Of a DNA stretch of 64,000 nucleotides, positions 18,890-64,000 are shown in pieces; within the stretch, counting starts at the first letter, position 1; each line of letters opens with the position of its first letter. Both the position numbers and the translations under genes were made by a program. The stretch is taken from assembly GCA_914767715.1 (NCBI GenBank), contig OU612067.1, forward strand, positions 14,203,001-14,267,000, given 5' to 3'. The notes beneath the pieces are model-generated. The model was not told the DNA's origin, did no database searches, and saw only the letters and a program-made list of their open reading frames with translations. Source of the stretch: Membranipora membranacea (Eukaryota; Bryozoa; Gymnolaemata; Cheilostomatida; Membraniporidae).

Positions 18890-19040
18890 GTGAAAGGTTG
18901 ATTAAACGTTTATTAAACGTTGATTAAAGGTTGATTAAATGTTGTTTCAAGGTTGATTCAAGGTTGATTCAAGGTTGATTCAAGGTTGATTCAAGGTTGA
19001 TTCAAGGTTGATTAAAATTAAATTAATTAAATTAAAATTA
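18890..19040. repeat. 11-bp minisatellite and AT-rich run in GST intron 2
   Basis: Repeats of tcaaggttgat, six in a row between about 18953 and 19015, flanked by related attaaacgttg variants and a run of attaa words. It lies just upstream (in gene sense) of the exon 3 acceptor. Confidence 0.9.
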
Positions 19041-19833
19041 AAGGTAGGGAACATGAGTTATAACAAACATCATGATCGCTGTGTAGTGGTTAGAAGTTCT
19101 GTTTGAATCAAGTAGCATCATTTGTTGTGACATTGGCGCACTGTATTAACAACCTTGTTTTTGGCAACCTTTTTTTTAGCTGCATGACGAGGTTAGCACT
19201 GTATACCTATGTCACAAGCGTTGCTCCACACTCAAGGCAAATTCATTCATCTTTTCGGGGACTAGAAAGTTATGAATCGAATGAGAAGGATGTGCAGCCT
19301 TGAAAATATACCAAAAACTACGGTGTAAGCTGGTTAATTCAAACTTCATAATTCAGAATTCCTTTTAAGGAAAATTGGTCCCTTCAGCCAGATCTCAATG
19401 CATTCTAATATCACTTAATTCAGATTCTGCTTAATAAGAACACATTTTTGTGTTCCCCAGAGGTTAGAATTAAGTATACGGCGCTGTATATTATTAAGCT
19501 AACTGTATGGGAAAACCTTTAGGAAACCCAATGAGAAAACTACTCAAGTAAGTGGCCGATCAAATCGTACTCAGTTTAATCTAAGAAGAGTACAAGGAGA
19601 ATTGAACCCACCAAATTTCTTGGCGACGTGTCTGGCGATGACGTTGGAGCAGCAGATGAGACCATCACTAGTTGTTAATGTGGGCAGCTGACCCAATGGC
19701 TGAGCTGTAAATAAGAAGAGTAAAATTATAAGTCAAATGTAAAATATGGTTAAAACTTTCCAATTTATCTCAAATCAGCAATAATTCATCTTCATTATTT
19801 CAAAAACATGTCATCTATGATGCGGGTAAAAGC

Positions 19834-19939
19834 ACAGCCAGCCCTTAAAAGCGTTCGGGATGGCTATCGCGGCCGTAGGCGGTCGTTGGACCGCCTACGG
19901 CCGCGATAGCCATCCCGAACGCTTTTAAGGGCTGGCTGT
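19834..19939. mobile_element. Perfect 106-bp palindromic MITE in GST intron 1
   Basis: Two 51-bp arms, exactly complementary (19834-19884 and 19889-19939), around the 4-base loop gttg. Both sides carry gggtaaaagc (19824-19833 and 19940-19949), a 10-bp direct repeat that reads as a target-site duplication. A target of 9-11 bp is typical of Mutator-like transposases. The GC-rich arms stand out from the AT-rich intron. Confidence 0.85.
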
Positions 19940-20388
19940 GGGTAAAAGCTGTGGCTTTTTGATTTTGTCAGTTTTCTTCTTTTTTGGGTCACAATAACAG
20001 GTGATCAAATAAAAAGTTAACTTAAAACAAAGAATATTGTAGCTACTATTACTTCTTATACAGTTATTGATAAACGTTATCCAAAAATACTAAAGATAGA
20101 TAAAGATAAAGATAAGGCTAATTGGAGGTTGTTGGAGTTGTCTGGTCTTGAGACAGAACCCAAAGATGGCTTATTTTCTTAAAAATGATTCAGATTGCCA
20201 AATAAAGTATTAAAGCAGAAAAATTGATTTCACAGATACTTACATGGCTTCATCTCAGCCCATTGCTCGAAGGTGACTCGCTTGTCCTCCATCTTCTTGC
20301 CGGCGATGGCGTACAGCATACGAGTGGCCTCACCACGAGCTCGGATACCGAAGTACAGAAGGGAATCATCTCCTTTCTTGCCAGCCAT

Positions 20389-21490: not shown

Positions 21491-21750
21491 GGCATTCGGC
21501 AAATCATCATATTATGATGATTTTGTGTAGAGTGGCTAGGGACGCTTGGCTCCATGCATGATACAGAATGGCCACTACTTTGAAATATCTTGGACTTACA
21601 GAATGCTATGCATACTTGTTTCTCAACATAATGAAAGAGGAATCAAAATTAATGTGTGATAAATCTTACAGGTGTAAGGCCACAATTAGGCCGCAAAAGA
21701 TTACCTATTAGGTCGCACTGGCAAAAAGGCTGCAGGTTGCCCACAGCTGG

Positions 21751-22129
21751 CGTCGATCATTGTATCCTGACGTTGATAAAAGTCACAAGAATAGATATTT
21801 TCATGACATTTTATGTAATCATTTTCAATTGGCTTGATTAGCCCTTGGAACTTGGCAAAAATTGTGCAGTGTCATCTAACATAGATATTTGAAGCTCAAA
21901 TGGCGTAGATCATTGTATTCTGACGTTGATAAAAGTCACAAGAATAGATATTTTTATGACATTTTATGTAATCATTTTCAATTGGTTTGATTAGCCCTTG
22001 GACCTTGGCAAAAATTGTGCAGTGTCATCTAACATAGATATTTGAAGCTCAAATGGCGTAGATCATTGTATTCTGACATTGATAAAAGTCACAAGAATAG
22101 ATATTTTTATGACATTTTATGTAATCATT
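21751..22129 (+). repeat. 153-bp tandem repeat, about 2.5 units
   Basis: Units start near 21755, 21908 and 22061. The third unit distinguishes B2 and B5 from the other backbones. Confidence 0.9.
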
Positions 22130-24037
22130 TGTAAAAATTGACTGCTTTTTCCATGACACTTCGTCCCTGACACCAAATTTAATTGCATTTGATAGAGCTA
22201 GATTTTAATTTATCTTGTTTTGTAATAGGAACTACTATTTCTGGATTCACTTTTCTTAGGAAATATGAGGCAAGTTTTTGTTAACCAAATAAGGTTAGCA
22301 AATGCAGTTTTACAGCGGTGATCAAGGGAGGTCACTCTGAAAAATATAACATAACATACATATAATACATACAATATAATCATTCATAGTCATAAAGAAT
22401 ATTCTCATGAAATATACCAATAACTATATTGTATTATTTTTTGTTTACATAACAGTTTTGACACATATAAAGCAGTCAACGAAGTACTTTATGCACACAA
22501 ATCAACACCAGACAAGTTTTACATCCTCTGTTGTGTGCTTTTTCCTGATAGAGAGTTTGAGTGTGACAGAGTAATGAGTCATGTTACAATCCTTATAACA
22601 TTTGGGCTCACATGTTCCAGATTGTCTCCCATTTTACCAGCAATTGAGAATATTTATCTCTACAGTAACAAACCTTCCTGCAGGCCTTCCTGCGCCCCTG
22701 TTGCCCTCCCACCCCCGAGCCCCCCGAGCCCCTGTTGCACCCTCATTGCAACATAATACTACCAACACAACCCTTGCCCCGCCACTTTACAAGTCATAGG
22801 TACAGCCCTGCTGCAGATCGTCATCATAGAAATACATCTTGTTATGCAAGGTTTGTCCTGCTTACTTGAGTATCGTTCCATTACTGCATTTATATAAAGA
22901 AGGGGCCCAGTATTTGTGGTGATTGATTTAAGGTAAGGCCACACGTTCTCATGCAAATTTCTGCTTCTTCTTGCAAATATAATTTCGTACTAATGTCAAC
23001 CTGCCACACATGATTCTCATCTCCGAAAATTGTATGAGCGCAATCCTTCTGCGCTAATACGAACCATTCCCCAACAGTGATATGAAATAAAAAGATTTAT
23101 ACCAAGGAGAAGCTGTTACTCGTTGTTTATACCAACCGCCCAGTGATTCAGCTTCTATGTATGCCTCAACCATCTCCTAATAATTGTTTCAATTTGATAC
23201 TCATAATTCACTGTATCCCTTCCCCTCTTACTCCAGGTCCAAAATTGAATGAGAAACTCTACATATTGATCATCCACTCCATCTTTTTACCAAAGTTGTG
23301 TTTGCATAGATATGACCTTGACTTTTCAATCAAAACGGGCAGCCACTCAGATAGCATTTTGTGAAAATTTATACTATCTGGTTACGTACATTGTTAACAT
23401 ACAGCGTTCCACAAATTGTGGAAATCCCAATCCGAACGACAGTTTACATGAAATTTACTCCTAATTGTGAGAAAACAACCCCATATGACTTCACTTTTAG
23501 ATAGATTTTTCTTTTGGTTTTACTAACAAGAAAATTCAGTGACAAGTTTATGACATGGCAGCCTAGAACCCTAAATGTTTCAACTCTGGCTTAAGATGTT
23601 TGCTATTGAATTGTGTTAAATGCAGATGAGAAGTCCCAAAAGTAAACATCACATATTGCATACGAGGCATTCTGGTCTATAACGTAAGTGACACTTTCAG
23701 GACCTGTATTGGGTAAACTGGCTTGCTCTGTATGCAACTATTGCCATGGGTAGTGGTTAGTGATATATTGCTATAGAAGAATTTGGAAAGACGCATCGTG
23801 ATGGTGTGACGTGTTTCAATTCCTTATTTTGCCAGACAGTTGTGGTTTCCCACAGTTTTACAAGTTTGGCAAGCATTCATTATTCCCTCCATAATAATCA
23901 AAATATGATTTTTCCCAGAATAACAATAATAACTAGCTTTATCAACAGTGATCATAACAAAATGAATACAACCCTGAAGTTAATTAATGGATATTCAATA
24001 GTTAACATTTGGTCTTGTGATGGGGGATCTTGTGCAC

Positions 24038-27949: not shown

Positions 27950-28114
27950 TTACAAATTGGAGTCGGGTCGACCGGCGAGGTATTTCTTTACACGCGGATC
28001 TGCCTCAAACTTGGCCGACCATTGTTTAGCGAAAGGAGTTACGCTCATCACATCTGGTGTGGCTAGTTTAGCGAAGTCCATACCGCACCATAACCATACA
28101 TCAGCAAGACCAAT
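27950..28114 (-). pseudogene. Orphan GST exon 4
   Basis: Intact 55-codon last exon of the GST (starts IGLADVWLWC, ends GRPDSNL then TAA) with its acceptor (attttgcag, minus strand). Exons 1-3 are absent: the ROCO cassette occupies their place from 28585. Without them it cannot make a GST. It shows what the C-terminus of copies 1 and 2 should be. Confidence 0.85.
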
Positions 28115-28584: not shown

Positions 28585-29205
28585 CCACTCACTCACTACT
28601 ATACCTGAGAGTATTGGTCAGCTGACTAATCTCACCTCACTGGATATCAGAGGCTACTCACTCACTACCATACCTGAGAGCATCGGTCAGCTGACTAATC
28701 TCACCTCACTGAGTATCTTCATCGACTCACTCCCTACCATACCTGAGAGCATCAGTCAGCTGACTAATCTCACCTCATTAAGTATCAGCAGCCGCTCACT
28801 CACTACCATACCTGAGAGTATCGGTCAGCTGACTAATCTCACCTCACTGGATATCATAGGCTACTCACTCACTACCATACCTGAGAGCATCGGTCAGCTG
28901 ACTAATCTCACCTCACTGGATATCATCGGCTACTCACTCACTACCATACCTGAGAGCATCGGTCAGCTGACTAATCTCACCTCACTGAGTATCTTCATCG
29001 ACTCACTCCCTACCACACCTGAGAGCATCAGTCAGCTGACTAATCTCACCTCATTAAGTATCAGCAGCCGCTCACTCACTACCATACCTGAGAGTATCGG
29101 TCAGCTGACTAATCTCACCTCACTGCACATCAGCGGCAACTCACTCACTACCATCCCTGAGAGTATTGGTCAGCTGACTAATCTCACCTCACTGACTATC
29201 AGCAG
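28585..29205 (+). repeat. LRR-coding minisatellite, nine 69-bp units
   Basis: Nine full units and a diverged last one (29206-29274). Relative to copy 1, the three units equivalent to 4-6 are absent. Unit 7 has a Thr for Ile change (accacacct). Confidence 0.95.
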
Positions 29206-31703
29206 CCGCTCACTCACTGCCATACCTGAGATCATCTTCGACATTATATCGTTGCAACAGCTCAGATGTGATGGCTGTTATTCTCTAACATCACCACCTA
29301 GAGAGGTCTGTGAACAGGGCATTTTTGCTGTTAGAAGGTACGTCTCTGACTTGCATTTGGAGAGAGGGCGTAACCAGCATCTTATTCCTGTTACGGTTAT
29401 TGGGAATCGCAAAGCAGGAAAAACAAGTCTAGTGTTGAGTGTTCAGCAAAATAAAAGAGTACTAACTGCACGTAATCCTGCTGAGAGCAAATTGGATGAG
29501 GCAACAAGAGTCTTCAAAGTATGCGAGGCGGATGTCAATGAAAGTTCTAAATTGGTATTTTCTGACTTTGGAGGGCAAAAGATTTCCAGTTTCTCATACC
29601 AGTTGAGCTTCAAAGCCGGTTGCCTTCCGCTGCTTGTAATAGATATAGCGGATTTTGACAGATTAGCCTCACTGGATGGAGAAGAAGTAGCATGCCAAGA
29701 ACTTTGTATAAAGTGGCTGACACACATGTATCTCTCATGTCCGAGTCTCGGCCGACCAATAATAGTCCTAACACATTGTGACAGAGTTACTAATGAATGC
29801 TTGAAACATCGAACGCAACAACTTGTGAACACTACAGAAACTCTACGTATGAGGATAATCAAGGAGGAGAACAAAGTAAGATCTACATTGAGCCCATTCT
29901 TTATCATGGCTAGCTTCGCAGATATCACTGAACTGTTTGTAAGGACAGAAAACATTGCCAACCTATCAAAGACCTCTAATCTAGCTGACATTGAGAGACT
30001 TAAAGAATTCCTTGAAGCTGCAGGATCTAAGATTATCACAGAATTACCGGCAAGCTGGTACCGAATACTCATCAAAATAACAAGTGACAAAGACAGGCCG
30101 TTCTTCACCCTTTCTGAGATAGACGAGCTCTTTCCTGATGACACTGATCATGTGGCACTTCAGTATCTTCATGATTCAGGCAGAATAATGTGGTTCAAGA
30201 GTGTCGAAGGTCTCGCCTCCTTTATATTCCATCGCCCTGAGGTTCTCACTGCTCTTATTGAGACGCTGTATAATCACACTCAAGATGCCGCCTGGGTTAC
30301 ACGATTAGCTAGCTTTACCTCATATATCTGGGCCGGAAAGACAATCGAGACTAGAAAATATACGGAGATGGTCAATCAGTTTCAATCAACAGGGGTTATG
30401 GAAGCTGCATTGCTCCATCATTTACTAGAACAAGAATCAGAGCTTCACCCTGACATTGGAATTGAAGTCCTGAAAACTTTCAACCTTATACACAAATTCG
30501 CAGATAAATGTATTATCCCTTACTTTGCTACCAGGAAAGTCTCAATTCCTGCCATTCATACTCATCTCATCCCACTGAAAGTAGATCTGTTTCTACAAGG
30601 TCTCCCTATCCCCAGATATGTCTACTCACTCATTACGGCGGCATATCTAGACATCAATGTGAATCCAGTCAATCATGTCGAGGCTGGAGCCTATGCTATG
30701 GACGACGGCCTCACAAGAGCAGGCATTGAGACGAAGAAGACAGAATGGTCTAGTGCTATACAGCTGTTTGACTTGATAGAAACTCAAATCACAGAACTGG
30801 TCTCATGTGGACTATCCCTACTTGTGATGTCCATCATGTCGCATGGTATAGCTGGAATGCTAACAGGAAGTGACCGCACACAGGCAATCATTTCTGACAT
30901 CCTCAAAGAAACAGAGAAACAACTCCCAGAGCATATACCGTTGGTAAAAAGAGTTATTAACCTTTTGTTCACTTATGTCATTTTTGGGATAGTTTCACAG
31001 GGTTTACATGAGATCTACCAGTACCAGTCATGTGACCACATCCACCATTGTAAATTTCTGCAAAAAATGATGATGTGAGTTAGTCTGAGAACAGACACAA
31101 CGCCAGGATGATGATGTGGAACACAAAGAAATTCAAACTTTGCATCCACTCCACACGTTATACGTTTCAGCTTGAAATGGGTATCAACTACAATTCCCAA
31201 ACAAGAGCATGTATGTATGTAACCTGCCCCTTTACTGTTTTGAAAACATGATGATTTGTAGTTGTATTCTATCGTCGTAGATAATTATGATCCAGGCCTG
31301 TCAGGGTGAACATAAAGCTTCTGGATCAACCTCTACAAGCAGCCTAAGAGATGCCCAGGGCTCAACAGAAAAGGATAACCAGCTGATCAAACTGAAGAGG
31401 CCTCACACCTTGTTACTCATGTCTACAGTACATGGAGGGATGTCTGTCAGAGGGGCGTTCACTGGAGCTATCGCGAGACAGATAGTTAAAGCTGATGGTA
31501 AGACTACTATAGAAGAGATGGTGACTAAGGCTAATATAGATCTAAAGAAGAACGAACCAGATCAGTACAATCAGACACCAGAACTAAGAAGTACACTTCA
31601 GAAGAGTCTAGTACTTCCACCAGGGGAGCAGAAATCTGATTCTCTACAAAGCCTGAATAAACCATCTAAGATCAGTCTTCTCAAAAAGCTTGGTGTTCTT
31701 TAG
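28585..31703 (+). CDS. ROCO copy 2: short LRR-Roc-COR-caspase, in-frame deletion
   Basis: Two exons, 28585-30943 and 31281-31703, open throughout, giving 926 residues from the exon start. It has nine LRRs, a complete Roc domain (GNRKAGKTS, DFGGQ, THCD) and most of COR. At 30688/30689 sequence equivalent to ROCO3 41855-43097 is missing. This takes out the end of the COR region, the linker exon and the first strand of the caspase, and joins EAG to AYAMDD in frame. Catalytic His (MSHG) and Cys (QACQG, Cys codon 31299-31301) remain, as does the p10-like part. The putative substrate-pocket Arg in NKDGR is lost, so protease activity is doubtful. No start codon is visible upstream of Roc. Copy-specific changes include Gly for Arg in KAGCLP and Asn for His in KTFNLIH. 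Confidence 0.78.
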
Positions 31704-35895: not shown

Positions 35896-36418
35896 TGGTC
35901 TAATATGTGACTGATTCTAGGGCTATATGGTTTCAGAATTTCGATAGTCTAGACTCTAGAGTCTAGAGTGTCTTAAGAACGTTGTCTCCAATTGATTAAG
36001 TTACGTTGTGTCCAATTATTAAGTACGCTGTGTCTAATTATGAACAAAAGGATATTATTTTTTGTTTCTTAATCTTTGTAATTTAATATAATTCTGACTC
36101 TCTGGAATAACTGATGACTCCCTCTCTTTTATTTCCATGAGTCAGATCTCTTTGTTGATTACAATTTAGAAGGGGGGGGGGGGCGTCGGACAAAAGGGGT
36201 GGCAAAAGTCTATCTTGGTCTCTGTCAGCAACAACCCTTTATTAAATTGATGGAAGATGACCTCTTAGGCAAGATGCAAAGAATGTTTTTGACCCAGTAA
36301 ATCTTAAAGCTTCAGCTGTGTTCAAAGGCAATCACAAAGTTCCCATGCATTGATTGGAACTCAAAATGAAGCGAATCCCTCACCATTTGAAATGGGATGC
36401 TTGAAAAAAATTCAAAAA

Positions 36419-36476
36419 GGTCTACCGCAGTCGGGAATTGAACCAGTCTTTGATGCTATCCACTGTGCTCGGCCCT
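36419..36476 (-). repeat. Second tRNA-like remnant in B3
   Basis: Same element as 15253-15310. Confidence 0.4.
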
Positions 36477-38253
36477 AATCGAACGAAGGAACACAAACCA
36501 ATACGCAACTAAATTGAACCCATGCTTTTGCCATGATTCCATAGCTCCTCAAGTTGATGTGAACACAATGAATGGCAACTTAGTGAATGTCAAAGGTTGC
36601 TGACGCATGTAAAATTAGACTGAGAACTTCAAAACAATACCAAACAATATGATAGCGACACTGTGACTTAAATTAAATGATTTACACCAGGACTTATGAT
36701 AGCATCAAAGTAGAGAACTGCTTTCTTAGCTTTGTCAAATTCACTAAAGTATATTTTTATTTGTGTCTTATAGGTAGTTGATACATCCGCCATCACCAGA
36801 ACGGACAAGCTGCGCAAGTACTTCACTATGCCCTTCTGACCTATGAATATGACGAATTCCTTTGAACACATCATTTTCTATCATAATCTTAGCTACAAAA
36901 CAATAAAACTTCATCAAAGAACCCACAGTGATTTCATTTATGAGCTCTTGAAGTTGTAATGAGTACAAGTGCTGCCCCGGCAGGGGGGCGTCAGATGTGG
37001 GGGCACGAGTCTAGGGGGCTCAGACTAGCTACACAGTCATGATGACAGACCATTTGATTGAAAACCGCATCATGAGTAATTGTTGAAGTGCGTTTTTTCA
37101 GGTTAGTCATTATTGTCGAGCATGTGCTGGGGTATCCAGCAGTACGGTCATAACCTTGCCATAATGCCTGGTCAAAATACCATCAGGACAAAATGCGCAG
37201 AGAGCATGATATGCCAATGAAAAAAAATCCAGGAAATATACCAAGGCCCAAATAAACTTTCGTTAAAACACCAGTTGTTGCAACAGTCAAGAGCCCAGTG
37301 GAATCAAAGTCAGGTTGGACATAACACCATTTGGGACAACAAGCCACATCCAGCGTTTAGTCAACATAGGTTTATGACTGTCAGTTTCTAAGTGACAGTA
37401 ACAGTGACAAAGACTGTCATTTTATAGTCTGAGTTTACATCCAAATTGCAATAATACTAACTGTAAGAGACAGAGCACGTATTAGATCCATATTTGTAGG
37501 GTCGGATTATCGCCTACCCAGTATACATGTGTATTATATATATCACGATGATTTACAAATTAATGAGTATGGTAAGGGATACTGGTGAATTTGAAATAGT
37601 CTTTGTTAAAGCCCCAAATAATATAATGTAGAAACCCACCCAATAGGCCTACCAAGATTATTCACAGGCTATTGTTTTGGAATCGGCCAAGCCATAGATG
37701 GACATGTCGGGTAAATAAATTTGACTAATTTTATGTGCCTTTTTACGCCCTATCAGGCCTGTCAAAGAGATCAACACTCTTGTATGACAATCCAGTTCAT
37801 GTAGGGTCTTCATGATGGTACCTGGAGATTTAAAAGTTTCAGGTTGCAGATAACTCCACACAATAACAAACCAAAACCTGTCAGCCGATCAAAACAAAAC
37901 ACAAGCACATGGGTCCATTTATAAAGGTACAATAATAGTGATACATGAGCAGATAACACCACACAAGCAATATCCAACATCACCAATAACGCAGACAAGG
38001 CTTCATTGTTGGCCTGAATCCCAGGCTACCAGTGTGCACCAATTCAGCTTCTTATTTCTCAGCACAGACTTAGGAAAACCACTAACTGGGCCTTCCACCG
38101 TTGAGATTGCAAGAAAAATCATATTATTTATTTGATGCAAATGAATTATAATTTTCAGATCGTTGACGGGAGTATTGTGTCTAGAGGCTAAAGTAACCTT
38201 ATAGGAAGTTAATTAAATGTTGGTTAAAAACGTTATTTAAATTCTTAAGAATG

Positions 38254-38449
38254 GGCAGCAACATAATGGGTGCCATAGGGGCTAGGCCACCAATATCTGC
38301 GGCAATTTCCTCTCAGTTTGTAGGCAGGTCGTAGCACACAAACATGTCCCAGTAGTCAGTGGGCTGCATTGGGATTCAATTCAAACCCACGCCTTTCAAC
38401 ACTTTTGCATGCTGAGGGACGCGCTCTAACTAGCTGAGCCACCTCCTAG
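38254..38449 (-). repeat. tRNA-derived SINE-like repeat in B3
   Basis: Same insertion as in the other backbones; carries the caccaatatctg variant shared with B1 and B4. Confidence 0.55.
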
Positions 38450-39117
38450 TCCTTAACAGTGTGTAACTCATTAGTTCTAGGGTAAAGATAATTTTAAAGT
38501 TTTACTGGGAGTTGCATTGTTGACATTTAACTAAAAACCTGTTCTGTTATTACTCGATCGATATTGTGCTGTATTATTAAATCTACAATCCTCTAACACA
38601 AGGGTCAATAATATATCACCTCTCAACTTCAAAGAATTATTTATTTAGTCTGAGCGCTTGGGGTGCAGGTAAATTTTAGCTTTGCAAGGTTTGTTTTGCT
38701 CGGCTCAAGTTTGAAAACCTAGTGATAGAAAACCACCTGTAACAATAACTTGAGCACACACCTCCCGATTTAAACCTATGATCAAGTTTAACAAACAAGA
38801 AACAAGCAAGCAAAGTCTACTCACTTCTAATACCAACATCAATCTTATCGACAGTAAGTGATATGATGTATTGATAGGCTTAATAAATCTAAATCCTTCA
38901 CCGAGTCAAAATGCAAACACATTACTAGAACAACATCAAAAATAAAAAACAATTTAGTAAACACAATGTTTAGTTAGCTCGGGCACCTAAAAACATAACT
39001 TGGTCTCTTTATCACAGAAAGTGCATGTAATGGATTATAACTCATATTATTGAGAGAAATACGGACGGCTGTTTGACAGATCTAAAAATAATCAGATGCA
39101 AGACAACACCGACAAAT

Positions 39118-39282
39118 TTACAAATTGGAGTCGGGTCGACCGGCGAGGTATTTCTTTACACGCGGATCTGCCTCAAACTTGGCCGACCATTGTTTAGCGA
39201 AAGGAGTTACGCTCATCACATCTGGTGTGGCTAGTTTAGCGAAGTCCATACCGCACCATAACCATACATCAGCAAGACCAAT
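39118..39282 (-). pseudogene. Orphan GST exon 4
   Basis: Complete last exon of the GST with intact frame and stop but no exons 1-3; the ROCO cassette begins 472 bp away at 39754. Confidence 0.85.
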
Positions 39283-39753
39283 CTGCAAAATTAAATAATG
39301 TTGTCTGCATAATTCTTCTGCATGCAGAGAGGCGTGAATCTAAGAAAATTCTGATATGCACTGGAAGAATTGGAGAACATTTTTTGCATTCACTTGCTTT
39401 AGTAATATAGGTGAAGCAATCATATCCCTTTTGCACTGTGGGTCAGAATATGGAAAACATAATCAAGGGACTAATAACTGGTTTGTGGCGATGTGTAGTG
39501 ACACATTGTGCATATCAAACCATTATATTTGGCATGAGCATTTGATACCATAGAACTTGCCCTGGGTAAACAGGCCAAATAACACATAATACAAAACTTC
39601 ATAAGTACTTCACATTTGTCCTGATCCATACCTCAGGCCAATTTGTAGAAATTATCTATCAATTGCCACCCGTCTTATATGTAATAGCAGTTAACAAGAA
39701 ATTCGGACACAAAATTGATCCGCCCAAAGAATTCTGGCCAATGTACACTACAG

Positions 39754-40374
39754 CCACTCACTCACTACTATATCTGAGAGTATTGGTCAGCTGACTAATC
39801 TCACCTCACTGGAGATCAGAGGCTACTCACTCACTACCATACCTGAGAGCATCGGTCAGCTGACTAATCTCACCTCACTGAGTATCTTCATCGACTCACT
39901 CCCTACCATACCTGAGAGCATCAGTCAGCTGACTAATCTCACCTCATTAAGTATCAGCAGCCGCTCACTCACTACCATACCTGAGAGTATCGGTCAGCTG
40001 ACTAATCTCACCTCACTGGATATCATAGGCTACTCACTCACTACCATACCTGAGAGCATCGGTCAGCTGACTAATCTCACCTCACTGGATATCATCGGCT
40101 ACTCACTCACTACCATACCTGAGAGCATCGGTCAGCTGACTAATCTCACCTCACTGAGTATCTTCATCGACTCACTCCCTACCATACCTGAGAGCATCAG
40201 TCAGCAGACTAATCTCACCTCATTAAGTATCAGCAGCCGCTCACTCACTACCATACCTGAGAGTATCGGTCAGCTGACTAATCTCACCTCACTGCAGATC
40301 AGCGGCAACTCACTCACTACCATCCCTGAGAGTATTGGTCAGCTGACTAATCTCACCTCACTGACTATCAGCAG
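39754..40374 (+). repeat. LRR-coding minisatellite, nine 69-bp units
   Basis: Nine units and a diverged last one (40375-40443). Private changes are ATA TCT in unit 1 and CAG for CTG (Gln for Leu) in unit 7; the latter puts a polar residue at a conserved LRR position. Confidence 0.95.
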
Positions 40375-43300
40375 CCGCTCACTCACTGCCATACCTGAGA
40401 TCATCTTCGACATTATATCGTTGCAACAGCTCAGATGTGATGGCTGTTATTCTCTAACATCACCACCTAGAGAGGTCTGTGAACAGGGCATTTTTGCTGT
40501 TAGAAGGTACGTCTCTGACTTGCATTTGGAGAGAGGGCGTAACCAGCATCTTATTCCTGTTACGGTTATTGGGAATCGCAAAGCAGGAAAAACAAGTCTA
40601 GTGTTGAGTGTTCAGCAAAATAAAAGAGTACTAACTGCACGTAATCCTGCTGAGAGCAAATTGGATGAGGCAACAAGAGTCTTCAAAGTATGCGAGGCGG
40701 ATGTCAATGAAAGTTCTAAATTGGTATTTTCTGACTTTGGAGGGCAAAAGATTTCCAGTTTCTCATACCAGTTGAGCTTCAAAGCCCGTTGCCTTCCGCT
40801 GCTTGTAATAGATATAGCGGATTTTGACAGATTAGCCTCACTGGATGGAGAAGAAGTAGCATGCCAAGAACTTTGTATAAAGTGGCTGACACACCTGTAT
40901 CTCTCATGTCCGAGTCTCGGCCGACCAATAATAGTCCTAACACATTGTGACAGAGTTACTAATGAATGCTTGAAACATCGAACGCAACAACTTGTGAACA
41001 CTACAGAAACTCTACGTATGAGGATAATCAAGGAGGAGAACAAAGTAGGATCTACATTGAGCCCATTCTTTATCATGGCTAGCTTCGCAGATATCACTGA
41101 ACTGTTTGTAAGGACAGAAAACATTGCCAACCTATCAAAGACCTCTAATCTAGCTGACATTGAGAGACTTAAAGAATTCCTTGAAGCTGCAGGATCTAAG
41201 ATTATCACAGAATTACCGGCAAGCTGGTACCGAATACTCATCAAAATAACAAGTGACAAAGACAGGCCGTTCTTCACCCTTTCTGAGATAGACGAGCTCT
41301 TTCCTGATGACACTGTTCATGTGGCACTTCAGTATCTTCATGATTCAGGCAGAATAATGTGGTTCAAGAGTGTCGAAGGTCTCGCCTCCTTTATATTCCA
41401 TCGCCCTGAGGTTCTCACTGCTCTTATTGAGACGCTGTATAATCACACTCAAGATGCCGCCTGGGTTACACGATTAGCTAGCTTTACCTCATATATCTGG
41501 GCCGGAAAGACAATCGAGACTAGAAAATATACGGAGATGGTCAATCAGTTTCAATCAACAGGGGTTATGGAAGCTGCATTGCTCCATCATTTACTAGAAC
41601 AAGAATCAGAGCTTCACCCTGACATTGGAATTGAAGTCCTGAAAACTTTCCACCTTATACACAAATTCGCAGATAAATGTATTATCCCTTACTTTGCTAC
41701 CAGGAAAGTCTCAATTCCTGCCATTCATACTCATCTCATCCCACTGAAAGTAGATCTGTTTCTACAAGGTCTCCCTATCCCCACATATGTCTACTCACTC
41801 ATTACGGCGGCATATCTAGACATCAATGTGAATCCAGTCAATCATGTCGAGGCTGGAAGGAATGGCGCTAATGTCACAGAGATCACCGGTCTGTTCAAAT
41901 ACCTTGTTCATGATGAATCTGCAAGATGTGTGACATTAACCATCCTCTGCCCGGCCAAGAGAATCTGCGAGGCGTGGAGGGATCAATTGGACACGCTGAG
42001 CAAACTAACAACTGAATTAAAAACCGTGTGGAAGGCTGTCCGTTATGAGAGTGTTTTCTATTGCTCACATTGTCTGCTGAACAGCATACAAAACCCAACT
42101 ACGAATGTTGATCCTGCTTGGCTCGAGAAGCCACTACAACTAGAGAGCAGTTTTTCAGGAGATGAGACATGCTACTGCCGACATGTGAAGAATAGTGAGG
42201 TTGATCGATCGATTCCACTCCCACTGATGTATCCATGTAAGTAGCAAAACCATTATCTTTTCTAGAAATATCCAGATCACATTTGATGTGTTATTCTTGC
42301 TCATCTTTGTCAGCTCATGTCAATTCTTTTTATGGCAAGACATTATTCCTAAACTAGGATGTTTTACTGAAGTTTTTTTTTATGTAGTTTTCTAGTACCA
42401 GGTTTTTGACAGAGATGTTGGGTCAAAATCACATTTTATGCAGACAAATTTTGGTCAAACATAATACAGTCAAGCAGATGATGATAGATGATAGATAGAT
42501 GATGAGTTTATTTGGTTTATTATACTTGATGGTCTCATTGCAGGTTTGACCAGCAGCGAGCTAGGAATTGATAGATTACAAGACTATGTGACAAATCTCA
42601 CGGCTCTGTCCGGTAAGTCAGATAAGTCAGCTCCGACAGGGCTTCACAATTATTCAATCTGATCATGGATTCTAATTAAAATCCTCTTGAACTACCAGAA
42701 ATTACTTATTCGCAGGCTGATTGTTAGGTTAGGAAAATTGCAAAGAATACTCTAATTGAATCCAATCAAAAGCAACTGGACACAAATGGAAGAGAATGCA
42801 TTATAAAGCAGGTTGATCTGCTTTAAAAATTAGCGTTTGGTGTGTTTATTCCTATTTTCGCGCATAGCTTCAACATCGGTGTAGCAGTGACAACCTCTAA
42901 AACTACATTAATTTATTCTCATAGATAAGTCGCAAGTGATGAAACTGCTTGTGGAAAAGTATCCACTAGACATGAGCGACATCAGACTGTTATGTGATCT
43001 CAGTGATCAGTACATCATACCCTATACACAAACTCATGTGAAACGATGTGGGCTCGTGCTGTTCAACAAAGATGGTAGAGTCAACGCGCTAGAGGAGGCC
43101 TATGCTATGGACGACGGCCTCACAAGAGCAGGCATTGAGAAGAAGAAGACAGAATGGTCTAGTGCTATACAGCTGTTTGACTTGATAGAAACTCAAATCA
43201 CAGAACTGGTCTCATGTGGACTATCCCTACTTGTGATGTCCATCATGTCGCATGGTATAGCTGGAATGCTAACAGGAAGTGACCGCACACAGGCAATCAT

Positions 43301-44113
43301 TTCTGACATCCTCAAAGAAACAGAGAAACAACTCCCAGAGCATATACCGTTGGTAAAAAGAGTTATTAACCTTTTGTTCACTTATGTCATTTTTGGAATA
43401 GTTTCACAGGGTTTACATGAGATCTACCAGTACCAGTCATGTGACCACATCCACCATTGTAAATTTCTGCAAAAAATGATGATGTGAGTTAGTCTGAGAA
43501 CAGACACAACGCCAGGATGATGATGTGGAACACAAAGAAATTCAAACTTTGCATCCACTCCACACGTTATACGTTTCAGCTTGAAATGGGTATCAACTAC
43601 AATTCCCAAACAAGAGCATGTATGTATGTAACCTTGCCCCTTTACTGTTTTGAAAACATGATGATTTGTAGTTGTATTCTATCGTCGTAGATAATTATGA
43701 TCCAGGCCTGTCAGGGTGAACATAAAGCTTCTGGATCAACCTCTACAAGCAGCCTAAGAGGAACCCAGGGCTCAACAGAAAAGGATAACCAGCTGATCAA
43801 ACTGAAGAGGCCTCACACCTTGTTACTCATGTCTACAGTACATGGAGGGATGTCTGTCAGAGGGGCGTTCACTGGAGCTATCGCGAGACAGATAGTTAAA
43901 GCTGATGGTAAGACTACTATAGAAGAGATGGTGACTAAGGCTAATATAGATCTAAAGAAGAACGAACCAGATCAGTACAATCAGACACCAGAACTAAGAA
44001 GTACACTTCAGAAGAGTCTAGTACTTCCACCAGGGGAGCAGAAATCTGATTCTCTACAAAGCCTGAATAAACCATCTAAGATCAGTCTTCTCAAAAAGCT
44101 TGGTGTTCTTTAG
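39754..44113 (+). CDS. ROCO copy 3: intact LRR-Roc-COR-caspase fusion
   Basis: Exons 39754-42236, 42544-42612, 42925-43352 and 43691-44113. All junctions keep phase, giving 1,133 residues from the exon start. Residues 1-230 are LRRs (nine 23-mers plus a last one). Roc lies at about 265-410, with P-loop GNRKAGKTS 273-281, DFGGQ from 327 and THCD from 396. COR follows to about residue 780 and ends in a Cys-containing linker (YCSHCLL, CYCRHVK). The caspase fills about 870-1120: it has RCGLVLFNKDGR, catalytic His960 in MSIMSHG, Cys1000 in IQACQGE, an Asp-bearing linker (STEKD) that could be a processing site, and a p10-like part with SVRG and QTPELRSTL. Known roles: Roc-COR is a GTP-controlled dimerisation switch and caspases are apoptotic or inflammatory proteases. 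By inference, ligand sensing by the LRRs would activate the caspase directly, without adaptor domains. No start codon is found; the true N-terminus must come from an upstream exon or is missing. Confidence 0.85.
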
Positions 44114-47710: not shown

Positions 47711-48306
47711 ATGGCACGATTCATATTGGTGGTTATTGCTTGCCTGTTCATGGCCGCTGTTGGTGAGAATACTTTAATTATTTATAGTTATTGTAATATG
47801 ACGACTACAGTATTTATTCATGTGAACTATGTTCTGTTTATCGATTAAGAATATTTCAAACTATTAAAAATGTGATTTTCTTAATAAATAATAGTAAATT
47901 GATAATACACAAAGAAGAAATCTCAGACTTTGAGATAACAAAGTCAAGAACTAGTTGAGAATTTAAACAAAATTGCAAGCGTGACATGAAACAATTCATG
48001 ATCGTTTAAATGCTAATTAAAATCTTTTAATTTTTTCAGTTGATACTGTCTTCGTCACAGAAAAATTCTGCAGGAGTTTGAACCCTGAGGGTTTTGAACA
48101 GTGCGTGCAAACTAAAGACTGCGTCGGCTACGGCACCCGCAATAAATACTGCTGTACTGATTGCAAATTTAATACTTGTATGCCTGATGATGAATGTTGG
48201 TCCGACGGTAAGTATTTTAAAGTTTCAATTTTTTTTATCTCCATATGTTGCCCATTCAGCAGATTACAACTATGAAGATTTGCTCAAACCGAAAGTATAT
48301 ACCTAA
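47711..48306 (+). CDS. Secreted cysteine-rich peptide, copy 4
   Basis: Exons 47711-47762, 48040-48207 and 48260-48306, giving 88 residues. It is like copy 3 except that Ala becomes Thr at the start of exon 2 (VDTVFV), next to the likely signal-peptide cleavage site. All eight cysteines and the C-terminal tail are intact. Confidence 0.8.
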
Positions 48307-50861: not shown

Positions 50862-52444
50862 TCCTTAACAGTGTGTAACTCATTAGTTCTAGGGTAAAGA
50901 TAATTTTAAAGTTTTACTGGGAGTTGCATTGTTGACATTTAACTAAAAACCTGTTCTGTTATTACTCGATCGATATTGTGCTGTATTATTAAATCTACAA
51001 TCCTCTAACACAAGGGTCAATAATATATCACCTCACAACTTCAAAGAATTATTTATTTAGTCTGAGCGCTAGGGGTGCAGGTAAATTTTAGCTTTGCAAG
51101 GTTTGTTTTGCTCGGCTCAAGTTTGAAAACCTAGTGATAGAAAACCACCTGTAACAATAACTTGAGCACACACCTCCCGATTTAAACCTATAATCAAGTT
51201 TAACAAACAAGAAACAAGCAAGCAAAGTCTACTCACTTCTAATACCAACATCAAACTTATCGACAGTAAGTGATATGCTTGCTATGATGTATTGATAGGC
51301 TTAATAAATCTAAATCCTTCACTGAGTCAAAATGCAAACACATTACTAGAACAACATCAAAAATAAAAAACAATTTAGTAAACACAATGTTTAGTTAGCT
51401 CGGGCACCTAAAAACATAACTTGGTCTCTTTATCACAGAAAGTGCATGTAATGGATGATAACTCATATTATTGAGAGAAATACGGACGGCTGTTTGACAG
51501 ATCTAAAAATAATCAGATGCAAGACAACACCGACAAATTTACAAATTGGAGTCGGGTCGACCGGCGAGGTATTTCTTTACACGCGGATCTGCCTCAAACT
51601 TGGCCGACCATTGTTTAGCGAAAGGAGTTACGCTCATCACATCTGGTGTGGCTAGTTTAGCGAAGTCCATACCGCACCATAACCATACATCAGCAAGACC
51701 AATCTGGAAATTTAAATAATGTTGTCTGCATAATTCTTCTGCATGCAGGGAGGCGTGAATCTAAGAAAATTCTGATATGCACTGGAAGCATTGGAGAAAA
51801 TTTTTTGCATTCACTTGCTTTAGTAATATAGGTGAAGCAATCATATCCCTTTTGCACTGTGGGTCAGAATATGGAAAACATAATCAAGGGACTAATAACT
51901 GGTTTGTGGCGATGTGTAGTGACACATTGTGCATATCAAACCATTATAATTGGCATGAGCATTTGTTACCATAGAACTTGCCCTGGGTAAACAGGCCAAA
52001 TAACACATAATACAAAACTTCATAAGTACTTCACATTTGTCCTGATCCATACCTCAGGCCAATTTGTAGAAATTGTCTATCAATTGCCACCCGTCTTATA
52101 TGTAATAGCAGTTAACAAGAATTCGGACACAAAATTGATCCGCCCAAAGAATTCTGGCCAATGTACACTACAGTACGAAAACACTTTGACTATGACCCAG
52201 GTACTGTATTCTATTGATTAGCAGAGATATGTAAAAGTTGTCTTACCTCGCCAAGTTAAGGGCGGTGACCCATCTCTGTTTGGCTTTCTCCAAGACTTCG
52301 TCCTTGTTTTCTGGCTCTGGGACAGACTTGAACACCATCCAAGCGTAGATATGTGGAACGGCGTAGGAGTTCATTACATCCTGAGCTGTCATGAGCACCA
52401 TATCGTGTAAAGTCTCTTCCCATGGGGTCTTTCCAGCCATACCT

Positions 52445-52600
52445 GTGAAAGGTTGATTAAACGTTTATTAAATGTTGATTAAAGGTTGATTAAATGTTGA
52501 TTCAAGGTTGATTCAAGGTTGATTCAAGGTTGATTCAAGGTTGATTCAAGGTTGATTCAAGGTTGATTAAAATTAAATTAATTAAATTAAAATTAAAGGT
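52445..52600. repeat. 11-bp minisatellite in GST copy 2 intron 2
   Basis: Same tcaaggttgat array as 18890-19040, with slight differences in the flanking variant units. Confidence 0.9.
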
Positions 52601-53388
52601 AGGGAACATGAGTTATAACAAACATCATGATCGCTGTGTAGTGGTTAGAAGTTCTGTTTGAATCAAGTAGCATCATTTGTTGTGACATTGGCGCACTGTA
52701 TTAGCAACCTTTTTTTTGGCAACCTTTTTTTTAGCTGCATGACGAGGTTAGCACTGTATACCTATGTTACAAGCGTTACTCCACACTCAAGGCAAATTCA
52801 TTCATCTTTTCGGGGACTAGAAAGTTATGAATCGAATGAGAAGGATGTGCAGCCTTGAAAATATACCAAAAACTACGGTGTAAGCTGGTTAATTCAAACT
52901 TCATAATTCAAAATTCCTTTTAAGGAAAATTGGTCCCTTCAGCCAGATCTCAATGCATTCTAATATCACTTAATTCAGATTCTGCTTAATAAGAACACAT
53001 TTTTGTGTTCCCCAGAGGTTAGAATTAAGTATACGGCGCTGTATATTATTAAGCTAACTGTATGGGAAAACCTTTAGGAAACCCAATGAGAAAACTACTC
53101 AAGTAAGTGGCCGATCAAATCGTACTCAGTTTAATCTAAGAAGAGTACAAGGAGAATAGAACCCACCAAATTTCTTGGCGACGTGTCTGGCGATGACGTT
53201 GGAGCAGCAGATGAGACCATCACTAGTTGTTAATGTGGGCAGCTGACCCAATGGCTGAGCTGTAAATAAGAAGAGTAAAATTATAAGTCAAATGTAAAAT
53301 ATGGTTAAAACTTTCCAATTTATCTCAAATCAGCAATAATTCATCTTCATTATTTCAAAAACATGTCATCTATGATGCGGGTAAAAGC

Positions 53389-53494
53389 ACAGCCAGCCCT
53401 TAAAAGCGTTCGGGATGGCTATCGCGGCCGTAGGCGGTCGTTGGACCGCCTACGGCCGCGATCGCCATCCCGAACGCTTTTAAGGGCTGGCTGT
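53389..53494. mobile_element. 106-bp palindromic MITE in GST copy 2 intron 1
   Basis: Same insertion as 19834-19939, with the gggtaaaagc duplication at 53379-53388 and 53495-53504. One substitution (gatcgcc for gatagcc) breaks a single pair of the stem. Confidence 0.85.
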
Positions 53495-53943
53495 GGGTAA
53501 AAGCTGTGGCTTTTTGATTTTGTCAGTTTTCTTCTTTTTTTGGTCACAATAACAGGTGATCAAATAAAAAGTTAACTTAAAACAAAGAATATTGTAGCTA
53601 CTATTACTTCTTATACAGTTATTGATAAACGTTATCCAAAAATACTAAAGATAGATAAAGATAAAGATAAGGCTAATTGGAGGTTGTTGGAGTTGTCTGG
53701 TCTTGAGACAGAACCCAAAGATAGCTTATTTTCTTAAAAATGATTTAGATTGCCAAATAAAGTATTAAAGCAGAAAAATTGATTTCACAGATACTTACAT
53801 GGCTTCATCTCAGCCCATTGCTCGAAGGTGACTCGCTTGTCCTCCATCTTCTTGCCGGCGATGGCGTACAGCATACGAGTGGCCTCACCACGAGCTCGGA
53901 TACCGAAGTACAGAAGGGAATCATCTCCTTTCTTGCCAGCCAT

Positions 53944-55045: not shown

Positions 55046-55305
55046 GGCATTCGGCAAATCATCATATTATGATGATTTTGTGTAGAGTGGCTAGGGACGC
55101 TTGGCTCCATGCATGATACAGAATGGCCACTACTTTGAAATATCTTGGACTTACAGAATGCTATGCATACTTGTTTCTCAACATAATGAAAGAGGAATCA
55201 AAATTAATGTGTGATAAATCTTACAGGTGTAAGGCCACAATTAGGCCGCAAAAGATTACCTATTAGGTCGCACTGGCAAAAAGGCTGCAGGTTGCCCACA
55301 GCTGG

Positions 55306-55684
55306 CGTCGATCATTGTATCCTGACGTTGATAAAAGTCACAAGAATAGATATTTTCATGACATTTTATGTAATCATTTTCAATTGGCTTGATTAGCCCT
55401 TGGAACTTGGCAAAAATTGTGCAGTGTCATCTAACATAGATATTTGAAGCTCAAATGGCGTAGATCATTGTATTCTGACGTTGATAAAAGTCACAAGAAT
55501 AGATATTTTTATGACATTTTATGTAATCATTTTCAATTGGTTTGATTAGCCCTTGGACCTTGGCAAAAATTGTGCAGTGTCATCTAACATAGATATTTGA
55601 AGCTCAAATGGCGTAGATCATTGTATTCTGACATTGATAAAAGTCACAAGAATAGATATTTTTATGACATTTTATGTAATCATT
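55306..55684 (+). repeat. 153-bp tandem repeat, about 2.5 units, in B5
   Basis: Units start near 55310, 55463 and 55616, matching B2. Confidence 0.9.
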
Positions 55685-57537
55685 TGTAAAAATTGACTGC
55701 TTTTTCTCTGACACTTCGTCCCTGACACCAAATTTAATTGCATTTGATAGAGCTAGATTTTAATTTATCTTGTTTTGTAATAGGAACTACTATTTCTGGA
55801 TTCACTTTTCTTAGGAAATATGAGGCAAGTTTTTGTTAACCAAATAAGGTTAGCAAATGCAGTTTTACAGCGGTGATCAAGGGAGGTCACTCTGAAAAAT
55901 ATAACATAACATACATATAATACATACAATATAATCATTCATAGTCATAAAGAATATTCTCATGAAATATACCAATAACTATATTGTATTATTTTTTGTT
56001 TACATAACAGTTTTGACACATATAAAGCAGTCAACGAAGTACTTTATGCACACAAATCAACACCAGACAAGTTTTACATCCTCTGTTGTGTGCTTTTTCC
56101 TGATAGAGAGTTTGAGTGTGACAGAGTAATGAGTCATGTTACAATCCTTATAACATTTGGGCTCACATGTTCCAGATTGTCTCCCATTTTACCAGCAATT
56201 GAGAATACCCACCCCCGAGCCCCCCGAGCCCCTGTTGCACCCTCATTGCAACATAATACTACCAACACAACCCTTGCCCCGCCACTTTACAAGTCATAGG
56301 TACAGCCCTGCTGCAAATCGTCATCATAGAAATACATCTTGTTATGCAAGGTTTGTCCTGCTTACTTGAGTATCGTTCCATTACTGCATTTATATAAAGA
56401 AGGGGCCCAGTATTTGTGGTGATTGATTTAAGGTAAGGCCACACGTTCTCATGCAAATTTCTGCTTCTTCTTGCAAATATAATTTCGTACTAATGTCAAC
56501 CTGCCACACATGATTCTCATCTCCGAAAATTGTATGAGCGCAATCCTTCTGCGCTAATACGAACCATTCCCCAACAGTGATATGAAATAAAAAGATTTAT
56601 ACCAAGGAGAAGCTGTTACTCGTTGTTTATACCAACCGCCCAGTGATTCAGCTTCTATGTATGCCTCAACCATCTCCTAATAATTGTTTCAATTTGATAC
56701 TCATAATTCACTGTATCCCTTCCCCTCTTACTCCAGGTCCAAAATTGAATGAGAAACTCTACATATTGATCATCCACTCCATCTTTTTACCAAAGTTGTG
56801 TTTGCATAGATATGACCTTGACTTTTCAATCAAAACGGGCAGCCACTCAGATAGCATTTTGTGAAAATTTATACTATCTGGTTACGTACATTGTTAACAT
56901 ACAGCGTTCCACAAATTGTGGAAATCCCAATCCGAACGACAGTTTACATGATATTTAATCCTAATTGTGAGAAAACAACCCCATATGACTTCACTTTTAG
57001 ATAGATTTTTCTTTTGGTTTTACTAACAAGAAAATTCAGTGACAAGTTTATGACATGGCAGCCTAGAACCCTAAATGTTTCAACTCTGGCTTAAGATGTT
57101 TGCTATTGAATTGTGTTAAATGCAGATGAGAAGTCCCAAAAGTAAACATCACATATTGCATACGAGGCATTCTGGTCTATAACGTAAGTGACACTTTCAG
57201 GACCTGTATTGGGTAAACTGGCTTGCTCTGTATGCAACTATTGCCATGGGTAGTGGTTAGTGATATATTGCTATAGAAGAATTTGGAAAGACGCATCGTG
57301 ATGGTGTGACGTGTTTCAATTCCTTATTTTGCCAGACAGTTGTGGTTTCCCACAGTTTTACAAGTTTGGCAAGCATTCATTATTCCCTCCATAATAATCA
57401 AAATATGATTTTTCCCAGAATAACAATAATAACTAGCTTTATCAACAGTGATCATAACAAAATGAATACAACCCTGAAGTTAATTAATGGATATTCAATA
57501 GTTAACATTTGGTCTTGTGATGGGGGATCTTGTGCAC

Positions 57538-61449: not shown

Positions 61450-61614
61450 TTACAAATTGGAGTCGGGTCGACCGGCGAGGTATTTCTTTACACGCGGATC
61501 TGCCTCAAACTTGGCCGACCATTGTTTAGCGAAAGGAGTTACGCTCATCACATCTGGTGTGGCTAGTTTAGCGAAGTCCATACCGCACCATAACCATACA
61601 TCAGCAAGACCAAT
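61450..61614 (-). pseudogene. Orphan GST exon 4
   Basis: Intact last exon without exons 1-3, as at 27950-28114; ROCO copy 4 starts 471 bp to the right. Confidence 0.85.
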
Positions 61615-62084: not shown

Positions 62085-62705
62085 CCACTCACTCACTACT
62101 ATACCTGAGAGTATTGGTCAGCTGACTAATCTCACCTCACTGGATATCAGAGGCTACTCACTCACTACCATACCTGAGAGCATCGGTCAGCTGACTAATC
62201 TCACCTCACTGAGTATCTTCATCGACTCACTCCCTACCATACCTGAGAGCATCAGTCAGCTGACTAATCTCACCTCATTAAGTATCAGCAGCCGCTCACT
62301 CACTACCATACCTGAGAGTATCGGTCAGCTGACTAATCTCACCTCACTGGATATCATAGGCTACTCACTCACTACCATACCTGAGAGCATCGGTCAGCTG
62401 ACTAATCTCACCTCACTGGATATCATCGGCTACTCACTCACTACCATACCTGAGAGCATCGGTCAGCTGACTAATCTCACCTCACTGAGTATCTTCATCG
62501 ACTCACTCCCTACCACACCTGAGAGCATCAGTCAGCTGACTAATCTCACCTCATTAAGTATCAGCAGCCGCTCACTCACTACCATACCTGAGAGTATCGG
62601 TCAGCTGACTAATCTCACCTCACTGCACATCAGCGGCAACTCACTCACTACCATCCCTGAGAGTATTGGTCAGCTGACTAATCTCACCTCACTGACTATC
62701 AGCAG
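62085..62705 (+). repeat. LRR-coding minisatellite, nine 69-bp units
   Basis: Unit order as in copy 2, including accacacct in unit 7. Confidence 0.95.
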
Positions 62706-64000
62706 CCGCTCACTCACTGCCATACCTGAGATCATCTTCGACATTATATCGTTGCAACAGCTCAGATGTGATGGCTGTTATTCTCTAACATCACCACCTA
62801 GAGAGGTCTGTGAACAGGGCATTTTTGCTGTTAGAAGGTACGTCTCTGACTTGCATTTGGAGAGAGGGCGTAACCAGCATCTTATTCCTGTTACGGTTAT
62901 TGGGAATCGCAAAGCAGGAAAAACAAGTCTAGTGTTGAGTGTTCAGCAAAATAAAAGAGTACTAACTGCACGTAATCCTGCTGAGAGCAAATTGGATGAG
63001 GCAACAAGAGTCTTCAAAGTATGTGAGGCGGATGTCAATGAAAGTTCTAAATTGGTATTTTCTGACTTTGGAGGGCAAAAGATTTCCAGTTTCTCATACC
63101 AGTTGAGCTTCAAAGCCGGTTGCCTTCCGCTGCTTGTAATAGATATAGCGGATTTTGACAGATTAGCCTCACTGGATGGAGAAGAAGTAGCATGCCAAGA
63201 ACTTTGTATAAAGTGGCTGACACACATGTATCTCTCATGTCCGAGTCTCGGCCGACCAATAATAGTCCTAACACATTGTGACAGAGTTACTAATGAATGC
63301 TTGAAACATCGAACGCAACAACTTGTGAACACTACAGAAACTCTACGTATGAGGATAATCAAGGAGGAGAACAAAGTAAGATCTACATTGAGCCCATTCT
63401 TTATCATGGCTAGCTTCGCAGATATCACTGAACTGTTTGTAAGGACAGAAAACATTGCCAACCTATCAAAGACCTCTAATCTAGCTGACATTGAGAGACT
63501 TAAAGAATTCCTTGAAGCTGCAGGATCTAAGATTATCACAGAATTACCGGCAAGCTGGTACCGAATACTCATCAAAATAACAAGTGACAAAGACAGGCCG
63601 TTCTTCACCCTTTCTGAGATAGACGAGCTCTTTCCTGATGACACTGATCATGTGGCACTTCAGTATCTTCATGATTCAGGCAGAATAATGTGGTTCAAGA
63701 GTGTCGAAGGTCTCGCCTCCTTTATATTCCATCGCCCTGAGGTTCTCACTGCTCTTATTGAGACGCTGTATAATCACACTCAAGATGCCGCCTGGGTTAC
63801 ACGATTAGCTAGCTTTACCTCATATATCTGGGCCGGAAAGACAATCGAGACTAGAAAATATACGGAGATGGTCAATCAGTTTCAATCAACAGGGGTTATG
63901 GAAGCTGCATTGCTCCATCATTTACTAGAACAAGAATCAGAGCTTCACCCTGACATTGGAATTGAAGTCCTGAAAACTTTCAACCTTATACACAAATTCG
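62085..64000 (+). CDS. ROCO copy 4, partial (LRR-Roc-COR), cut by window end
   Basis: Open from the exon start to the last base of the window, 638 codons. It has nine LRRs (62085-62705), the Roc domain with GNRKAGKTS, DFGGQ and THCD, and COR up to KTFNLIHKF. It shares the private variants of copy 2 (KAGCLP, LTHMYLS, KVRSTL, KTFNLIH, and Thr for Ile in LRR 7), so it is the higher-order counterpart of that short gene. It should carry the same COR-caspase deletion just beyond the window. No start codon seen. Confidence 0.8.

Follow-up and report, generated by a model that had tools for sequence, protein, structure and literature searches.

In a tandem array that fills a 64-kb stretch of DNA (contig OU612067.1, positions 14,203,001 to 14,267,000, 64,000 nucleotides, hereafter called the window), four of six units contain a segment that would encode leucine-rich repeats (LRR), a Roc GTPase, a COR region and a caspase in a single chain. 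With a probability of roughly 0.6, this segment represents a genuine LRR-Roc-COR-caspase fusion which is present here in the form of amplified copies truncated at their 5' ends. A preliminary description of the sequence had been concerned with the locus at 39754-44113, here called copy C, and had overlooked the array context, in which this locus is just one of four copies (A to D), one of them carrying a stop codon and another a deletion. The copies seem to support the past existence of such a protein more strongly than the functioning of copy C.

The gene model for copy C comprises four exons on the plus strand. Exon 1 (39754-42236) contains about ten 23-residue LRR repeats, the Roc GTPase and COR, as indicated by Pfam, PDB and a structural model of the LRR solenoid. 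Exon 2 (42544-42612) codes for a 23-residue linker and is supported by its GT-AG borders, its phase, a GTAAGT donor and its codon score, with no support from homology. Exon 3 (42925-43352) contains a linker and the caspase p20 part with the SHG histidine, and exon 4 (43691-44113) the QACQGE cysteine loop, the intersubunit linker, a p10-like end and the stop codon, both exons being supported by Peptidase_C14 and by alignment with caspase-8. GT donors are located at 42237, 42613 and 43353 and AG acceptors end at 42543, 42924 and 43690, all with matching phases, and the four joined exons yield 1,133 open codons with the stop at 44111-44113. The borders, the phases, the open frame and the order of the domains agree with the four phase-consistent exons (LRR, Roc, COR and caspase) proposed in the preliminary description.

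Splice sites were scored with simple matrices among the 209 GTs and 368 AGs within 39754-44113. The donors of introns 1, 2 and 3 rank 3, 1 and 21 among these GTs, and the hexamer GTAAGT occurs only twice in the 4,360 bases, both times exactly where introns 1 and 2 begin. The three acceptors rank 27-29 among the AGs (29 for intron 1, 27 for intron 2), and strong donors left unused by the model are found at 40507 (exon 1), 43908 (exon 4) and 43484 (intron 3). The coding score of exon 2 is positive in the predicted frame only and is equalled by 3.1% of non-coding 67-mers, a comparison set in which 28% are free of stop codons. The donors of the first two introns are strong and that of intron 3 is weak; what supports the linking of exon 3 to exon 4 is instead homology, because this junction falls inside the caspase match to both Peptidase_C14 and caspase-8.

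An alternative interpretation of the same exons assumes two adjacent genes, an LRR-Roc-COR gene ending just past the donor of exon 1 and a short-prodomain caspase starting from a methionine of exon 3. Indeed, the frame of exon 1, if left unspliced, reaches a stop at 42242-42244, just past the donor, and exon 3 has an in-frame methionine near its start. However, the sole two GTAAGT hexamers coincide with the first two donors, the phases match, exon 2 is coding in one frame only, the interval between exons 1 and 3 contains no AATAAA and a single ATTAAA, and in copy B both parts are joined in one open frame without an intron (see below), so that two separate genes would be an improbable explanation.

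With respect to the individual domains, Pfam matches follow each other along the spliced protein in the order LRRs, Roc, COR-A and Peptidase_C14. The LRR families give a best E-value of 2.3e-29, and a single-sequence AlphaFold2 model of exon 1 shows an LRR solenoid in residues 1-200, where the predicted local distance difference test (pLDDT) score, averaged in blocks of ten residues, is 80-95; from residue 218 onwards pLDDT is below 50 and the model of Roc-COR is unusable. Roc is matched with 3.8e-4 (21.1 bits) in the spliced protein and 1.6e-4 (22.3 bits) in the Roc-COR part alone, below the cut-off of 27, and COR-A with 1.3e-4 (22.4 bits) and 2.7e-5 (24.5 bits), respectively, below the cut-off of 35.3. 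In the part alone, the COR-A match sits directly behind Roc; COR-B has no Pfam match in the Roc-COR part, and the only NCBIfam matches are small_GTP (0.017) and EutP (0.18), both under the cut-off. As read from the sequence, GNRKAGKTS starts at 40571, DFGGQ at 40733 and THCD at 40940 (together 40571-40951, plus strand), which we take to be the G1 (P-loop), G3 and G4-like motifs of Roc.

A phmmer comparison of the 609-residue Roc-COR part with all PDB chains, at E-values of up to 10, returned four distinct PDB sequences, 4wnr, 3dpu, 6hlu and 8r4b, with a best E-value of 6.2e-6, and all four are Roco proteins. The first three are prokaryotic according to a review of Roco proteins (PMC6337361), and 8r4b shares its PDB name with 3dpu and 6hlu. 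The significant stretch consists of residues 15-135 with the PPREVCEQG linker, the P-loop and DFGGQ, and has COR outside it, the PDB matches over the COR part being not significant. The profile search for Roc and COR suggested in the preliminary description was successful to the extent that Roc and COR-A were matched, albeit both under the cut-off, and the exclusively Roco matches in PDB can be added to it. Despite the Pfam scores below the cut-off, the protein would appear to belong to the Roco family, with a Roc domain and a COR region behind it. As a separate observation, COR and exon 1 are closed by a Cys/His-rich motif, CSHC...CYCRH (42062-42184, plus strand), which may be able to bind zinc; a similar motif may follow COR in other animal Roco proteins.

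The caspase part is matched by Peptidase_C14 with E-values of 3.9e-13 to 4.6e-12 and 46.5-50.1 bits, above the Pfam cut-off of 21.4, and the match spans the junction of exons 3 and 4. Even in the spliced protein, for which this profile test had originally been proposed, the score is 46.5 bits, and the previously noted motifs were located with MSHG starting at 43245, IQACQGE at 43700 and the p10-like SVRG at 43853. The best PDB match of this part is caspase-8 (2.7e-4), with the SHG and QACQG motifs of the His-Cys dyad and the p10 arginine of SVRG aligned with their caspase-8 counterparts. At the beginning of the p20 query, ~50 residues have no sequence match in caspase-8 and, by eye, look shortened; of the S1-pocket arginines, that of p10 is aligned and the position of that of p20 falls in this unmatched stretch. 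Unlike caspase-8, the protein has no DED according to Pfam, by which neither a CARD nor a DED nor a death domain was detected, be it in the spliced protein as a whole or in the stretch from COR to p20, the N-terminus of the protein being missing. The window was judged to be eukaryotic because introns are present, and together with the likeness to caspase-8 they suggest that the parent gene was probably an animal gene.

The array was mapped by a blastn comparison of the window with itself. It is composed of tandem units of about 10-12 kb, the longest alignments between units being 97.6-99.4% identical, and of a higher-order repeat in which 6170-30500 matches 39751-64000 with 98.9% identity at an offset of 33.6 kb. 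Uncollapsed haplotypes or an assembly error might have contributed to this pattern. Four units (A, B, C and D) have the LRR-Roc-COR-caspase segment, and two (2 and 5) have minus-strand exons of a glutathione S-transferase (GST) in its place. At the left breakpoint (39753/39754), the flank belonging to a GST intron meets the LRR array inside a 23-residue repeat. The sequence AATGTACACTACAG is common to the four LRR copies and the two GST units, which diverge right after it, and the LRR segment starts at the identical base in all four copies. In the 400 bases before the junction, copy C and each of the other five units have 375-397 identical columns, with 38 gap columns in the alignment of unit 2. 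Since all six units, the GST ones included, share the flank up to 39753, the LRR array begins at a rearrangement breakpoint, and with this breakpoint as its 5' boundary the gene is not seen whole. A normal exon start at 39754, following the AG that ends at 39753, was considered and rejected, as the same flank with the same AG lies inside the GST intron of the units lacking LRRs. The right breakpoint is at 45230/45231, and from 45231 on the sequence is common to A, B, C and GST unit 2.

The left flank contains the last GST exon in all units but copy A, whose alignment skips that stretch, and across the junction position the GST units carry on with the next GST exon. In unit 2 (17960-20388, minus strand), where the left breakpoint position lies within the intron before the last exon, the gene is damaged, the last exon having 158 bases as compared to 165 elsewhere with loss of the frame, and in unit 5 (51539-53943, minus strand) exon 3 shows 49 gap bases against unit 2 and runs into a stop. 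Pfam found only two weak GST matches in eight open reading frames or exons of the array, and the last GST exon of unit 5 alone matched GST_C_3 with 0.0016, under the cut-off. A composite of the GST exons, in turn, gave GST_N and GST_C_3 matches above the cut-off, and one GST was matched from residue 10 to 211. From the neighbouring GST exons on both sides of the junction and from this composite match it follows that the flank is native to the GST gene and that the LRR segment is the newcomer, an argument unaffected by the damage to the GST copies because only the GST exons flanking the junction position are needed for it. Probably, a 5'-truncated LRR segment replaced the initial exons of a GST gene and was amplified together with the array.

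The last GST exon is itself found at 27950-28114, 39118-39282, 51539-51703 and 61450-61614 on the minus strand, that is, in B, C (the orphan exon beside copy C), unit 5 and D, with all 165 bases identical and with three of the four exons orphaned. Recent conversion or use of the exon in another transcript are possible reasons for this identity.

As the locus is clearly rearranged, the fusion might also be conceived as an accident of the array rearrangements, in which case there would be no working parent protein. However, the breakpoints are located before exon 1 and 1.1 kb past the caspase, with none seen between COR and the caspase in copies A or C, the splice signals of introns 1 and 2 are good, and the same layout has been described in bacteria (PMC8195603). 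Such an accident is therefore considered very improbable.

The four copies differ in their integrity. Copy A (5966-10532, plus strand) has three extra LRR units, and its Roc part is interrupted by a stop at codon 365, in the numbering common to the copies. Copy B (28585-31703, plus strand) has a 1,240-bp deletion by which the end of COR, introns 1 and 2 and the start of p20 are gone; as this corresponds to 207 codons in frame plus the two introns, the frame is kept and the COR and p20 parts form one intronless open frame. Copy D (62085-64000, plus strand) is cut by the end of the window. Of the three copies that can be followed to their end, only copy C is open, A being stopped in Roc and B lacking its 207 codons. 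A start codon with an intact 5' end was not found in copy C, the first in-frame methionine of exon 1 being codon 422, and no plus-strand coding exon was evident by eye in a six-frame reading of 36001-39760, in which short exons could escape detection.

Comparison of the copies beyond codon 70 revealed 20 variable codons, of which 17 are nonsynonymous (one of them the stop) and three synonymous. Codons 1-70, where the three extra repeats put copy A out of register, were excluded from this count; within this stretch, two codons of B and D deviate from C, and both changes are nonsynonymous. Given a synonymous share of 25.9% under neutrality, as estimated from simulated changes in copy C, half of them transitions, the probability of three or fewer synonymous codons is 0.20 for neutral change, 0.012 for an omega of 0.5 and 1.1e-5 for an omega of 0.2. 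Purifying selection is not apparent from the variable codons, and the ratio of 17:3 argues against strong constraint, with drift and diversification being indistinguishable by it. Copies A to D have probably lost their native start and drift with little or no function.

A different view of the same observations is that copy C is a working chimera, for which the GST flank has supplied a new promoter or upstream exon, and that the array is a young, diversifying family of single-chain immune receptors. In favour of this view, copy C is open over 1,133 codons, the junction at 39753 ends in AG, the deletion in copy B preserves the frame, the number of LRRs varies with three more in A, and the preponderance of nonsynonymous codons (17 of 20) is what diversification would give. 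However, the AG at 39753 ranks only 72 among the 368 AGs as an acceptor, Roc of copy A contains a stop, copy B lacks the last part of COR together with the first part of p20, and the 17:3 ratio also fits neutrality (P = 0.20). A working chimera is thus thought to be unlikely, though far from negligible.

Some of these observations nevertheless weigh against the preferred interpretation, that of a genuine fusion persisting as 5'-truncated, amplified copies. Copy C is fully open and copy D is open as far as the window end, and the AG at 39753 could serve as the acceptor for an exon further upstream that has escaped notice. Because the copies are so alike, both their openness and the counts of nonsynonymous and synonymous codons are low in power. 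In addition, the donor of intron 3 is weak, the joins of exons 1, 2 and 3 are suggested by splice signals and phase and not by homology, and, the GST genes of units 2 and 5 both being damaged, the window shows no intact ancestor of the array unit.

In the parent protein, binding of a ligand by the LRRs would shift the nucleotide state of Roc, and pairing mediated by COR might then bring two caspase domains together, which might activate each other by proximity, cleave their substrates and kill or alarm the cell. Of the single-chain sensor, switch and caspase envisaged in the preliminary description, the chain as such is borne out by the domain searches and the splice model, while its characterisation as little-described, as GTP-driven and as replacing an adaptor has to be revised. 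GTP-driven COR dimerisation conflicts with data on CtRoco, for which PMC6337361 gives a mainly monomeric GTP form, a dimeric nucleotide-free form and an intermediate GDP form; by analogy, pairing would be more likely to occur after GTP hydrolysis or release. As for the adaptor, no death fold was found by Pfam between COR and the caspase, but the N-terminus is missing and an adaptor domain could therefore have been lost with it. In PMC6337361, pairing of Roco proteins is also tied to the C-terminal half of COR, a half whose end would be missing from copy B.

The layout as such is not new, and the label little-described does not apply to it. According to Kaur et al. 2021 (PMC8195603), bacterial proteins combine LRRs, an AP-GTPase and COR with at least 24 alternative C-terminal domains, including caspase and TIR, and bacterial AP-GTPases with COR occur in conflict systems (PMC7159879). 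These bacterial proteins resemble the one described here in having N-terminal LRRs followed by Roc, COR and an effector, with caspase being named among the effectors, a likeness that refers to the described layout only; in contrast to them, the present gene has introns and a caspase that resembles animal caspase-8. In animals, the sea anemone protein NG1 (LRR-Roc/Ras-COR-TIR, PMC5094078) and the TIR-ROCO proteins of Aplysia (PMC9334734) also join Roc-COR to an immune effector, which however is TIR and not a caspase. MFHAS1, LRRK1/2, DAPK1 and the prokaryotic Roco proteins share the Roc-COR pair, with LRRs before it in groups 1 and 2, but the three groups given in PMC6337361 carry LRRs only, LRRs with a C-terminal kinase, or a kinase and a death domain and thus differ from the caspase found here; caspase is not mentioned in the text of this review. 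In a survey of coral caspases (PMC4715348), the 14 tabulated loci combine the caspase with a CARD, a DED or another caspase domain, or have no partner listed, and none has Roc. Roc is not mentioned in PMC2246300, PMC6321704 and PMC11797021, nor are ROCO and caspase in PMC7385117. Judging from sequence, this would be a real and unusual domain fusion of the Roco kind with a layout known from bacteria, and an animal Roco-caspase fusion was not found in the literature searched, which has most subscription journals outside it and gives no proof of absence.

It is tempting to go further and to assume that an animal has single-chain LRR-Roc-COR-caspase receptors which form an immune family of recent age, still diversifying and amplifying in tandem, and in which Roc-COR pairing activates the protease without a CARD, DED or death-domain adaptor, as an animal counterpart of the bacterial systems and with copy B as a variant or decoy; this extended scenario is rather doubtful. 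If true, a Roco protein with its own caspase would show a second route to proteolytic cell death in animals and would connect animal Roco proteins with the LRR-GTPase-effector proteins that serve in bacterial defence. The array, for its part, illustrates how such a gene can be cut, copied and spoiled.

Further features of the window concern the array at large. At 914-1820, the region around the last GST exon recurs as an inverted copy with 88-89% identity to five units, which represents an older duplicate of opposite orientation. A small Cys-rich open frame (FCRSLNPEGFEQCVQTKDCVGYGTRNKYCCTDC...) without a Pfam match is located between units at 48021-48272 on the plus strand. In the GST units, a stretch of about 300 bases is partly doubled with an offset of 153 bases (21748-22200 and 55303-55755), which is listed once in the LRR units. 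Finally, a short minisatellite of GGTTGATTAAA-like units is present at ~18910-19010 in a GST unit.

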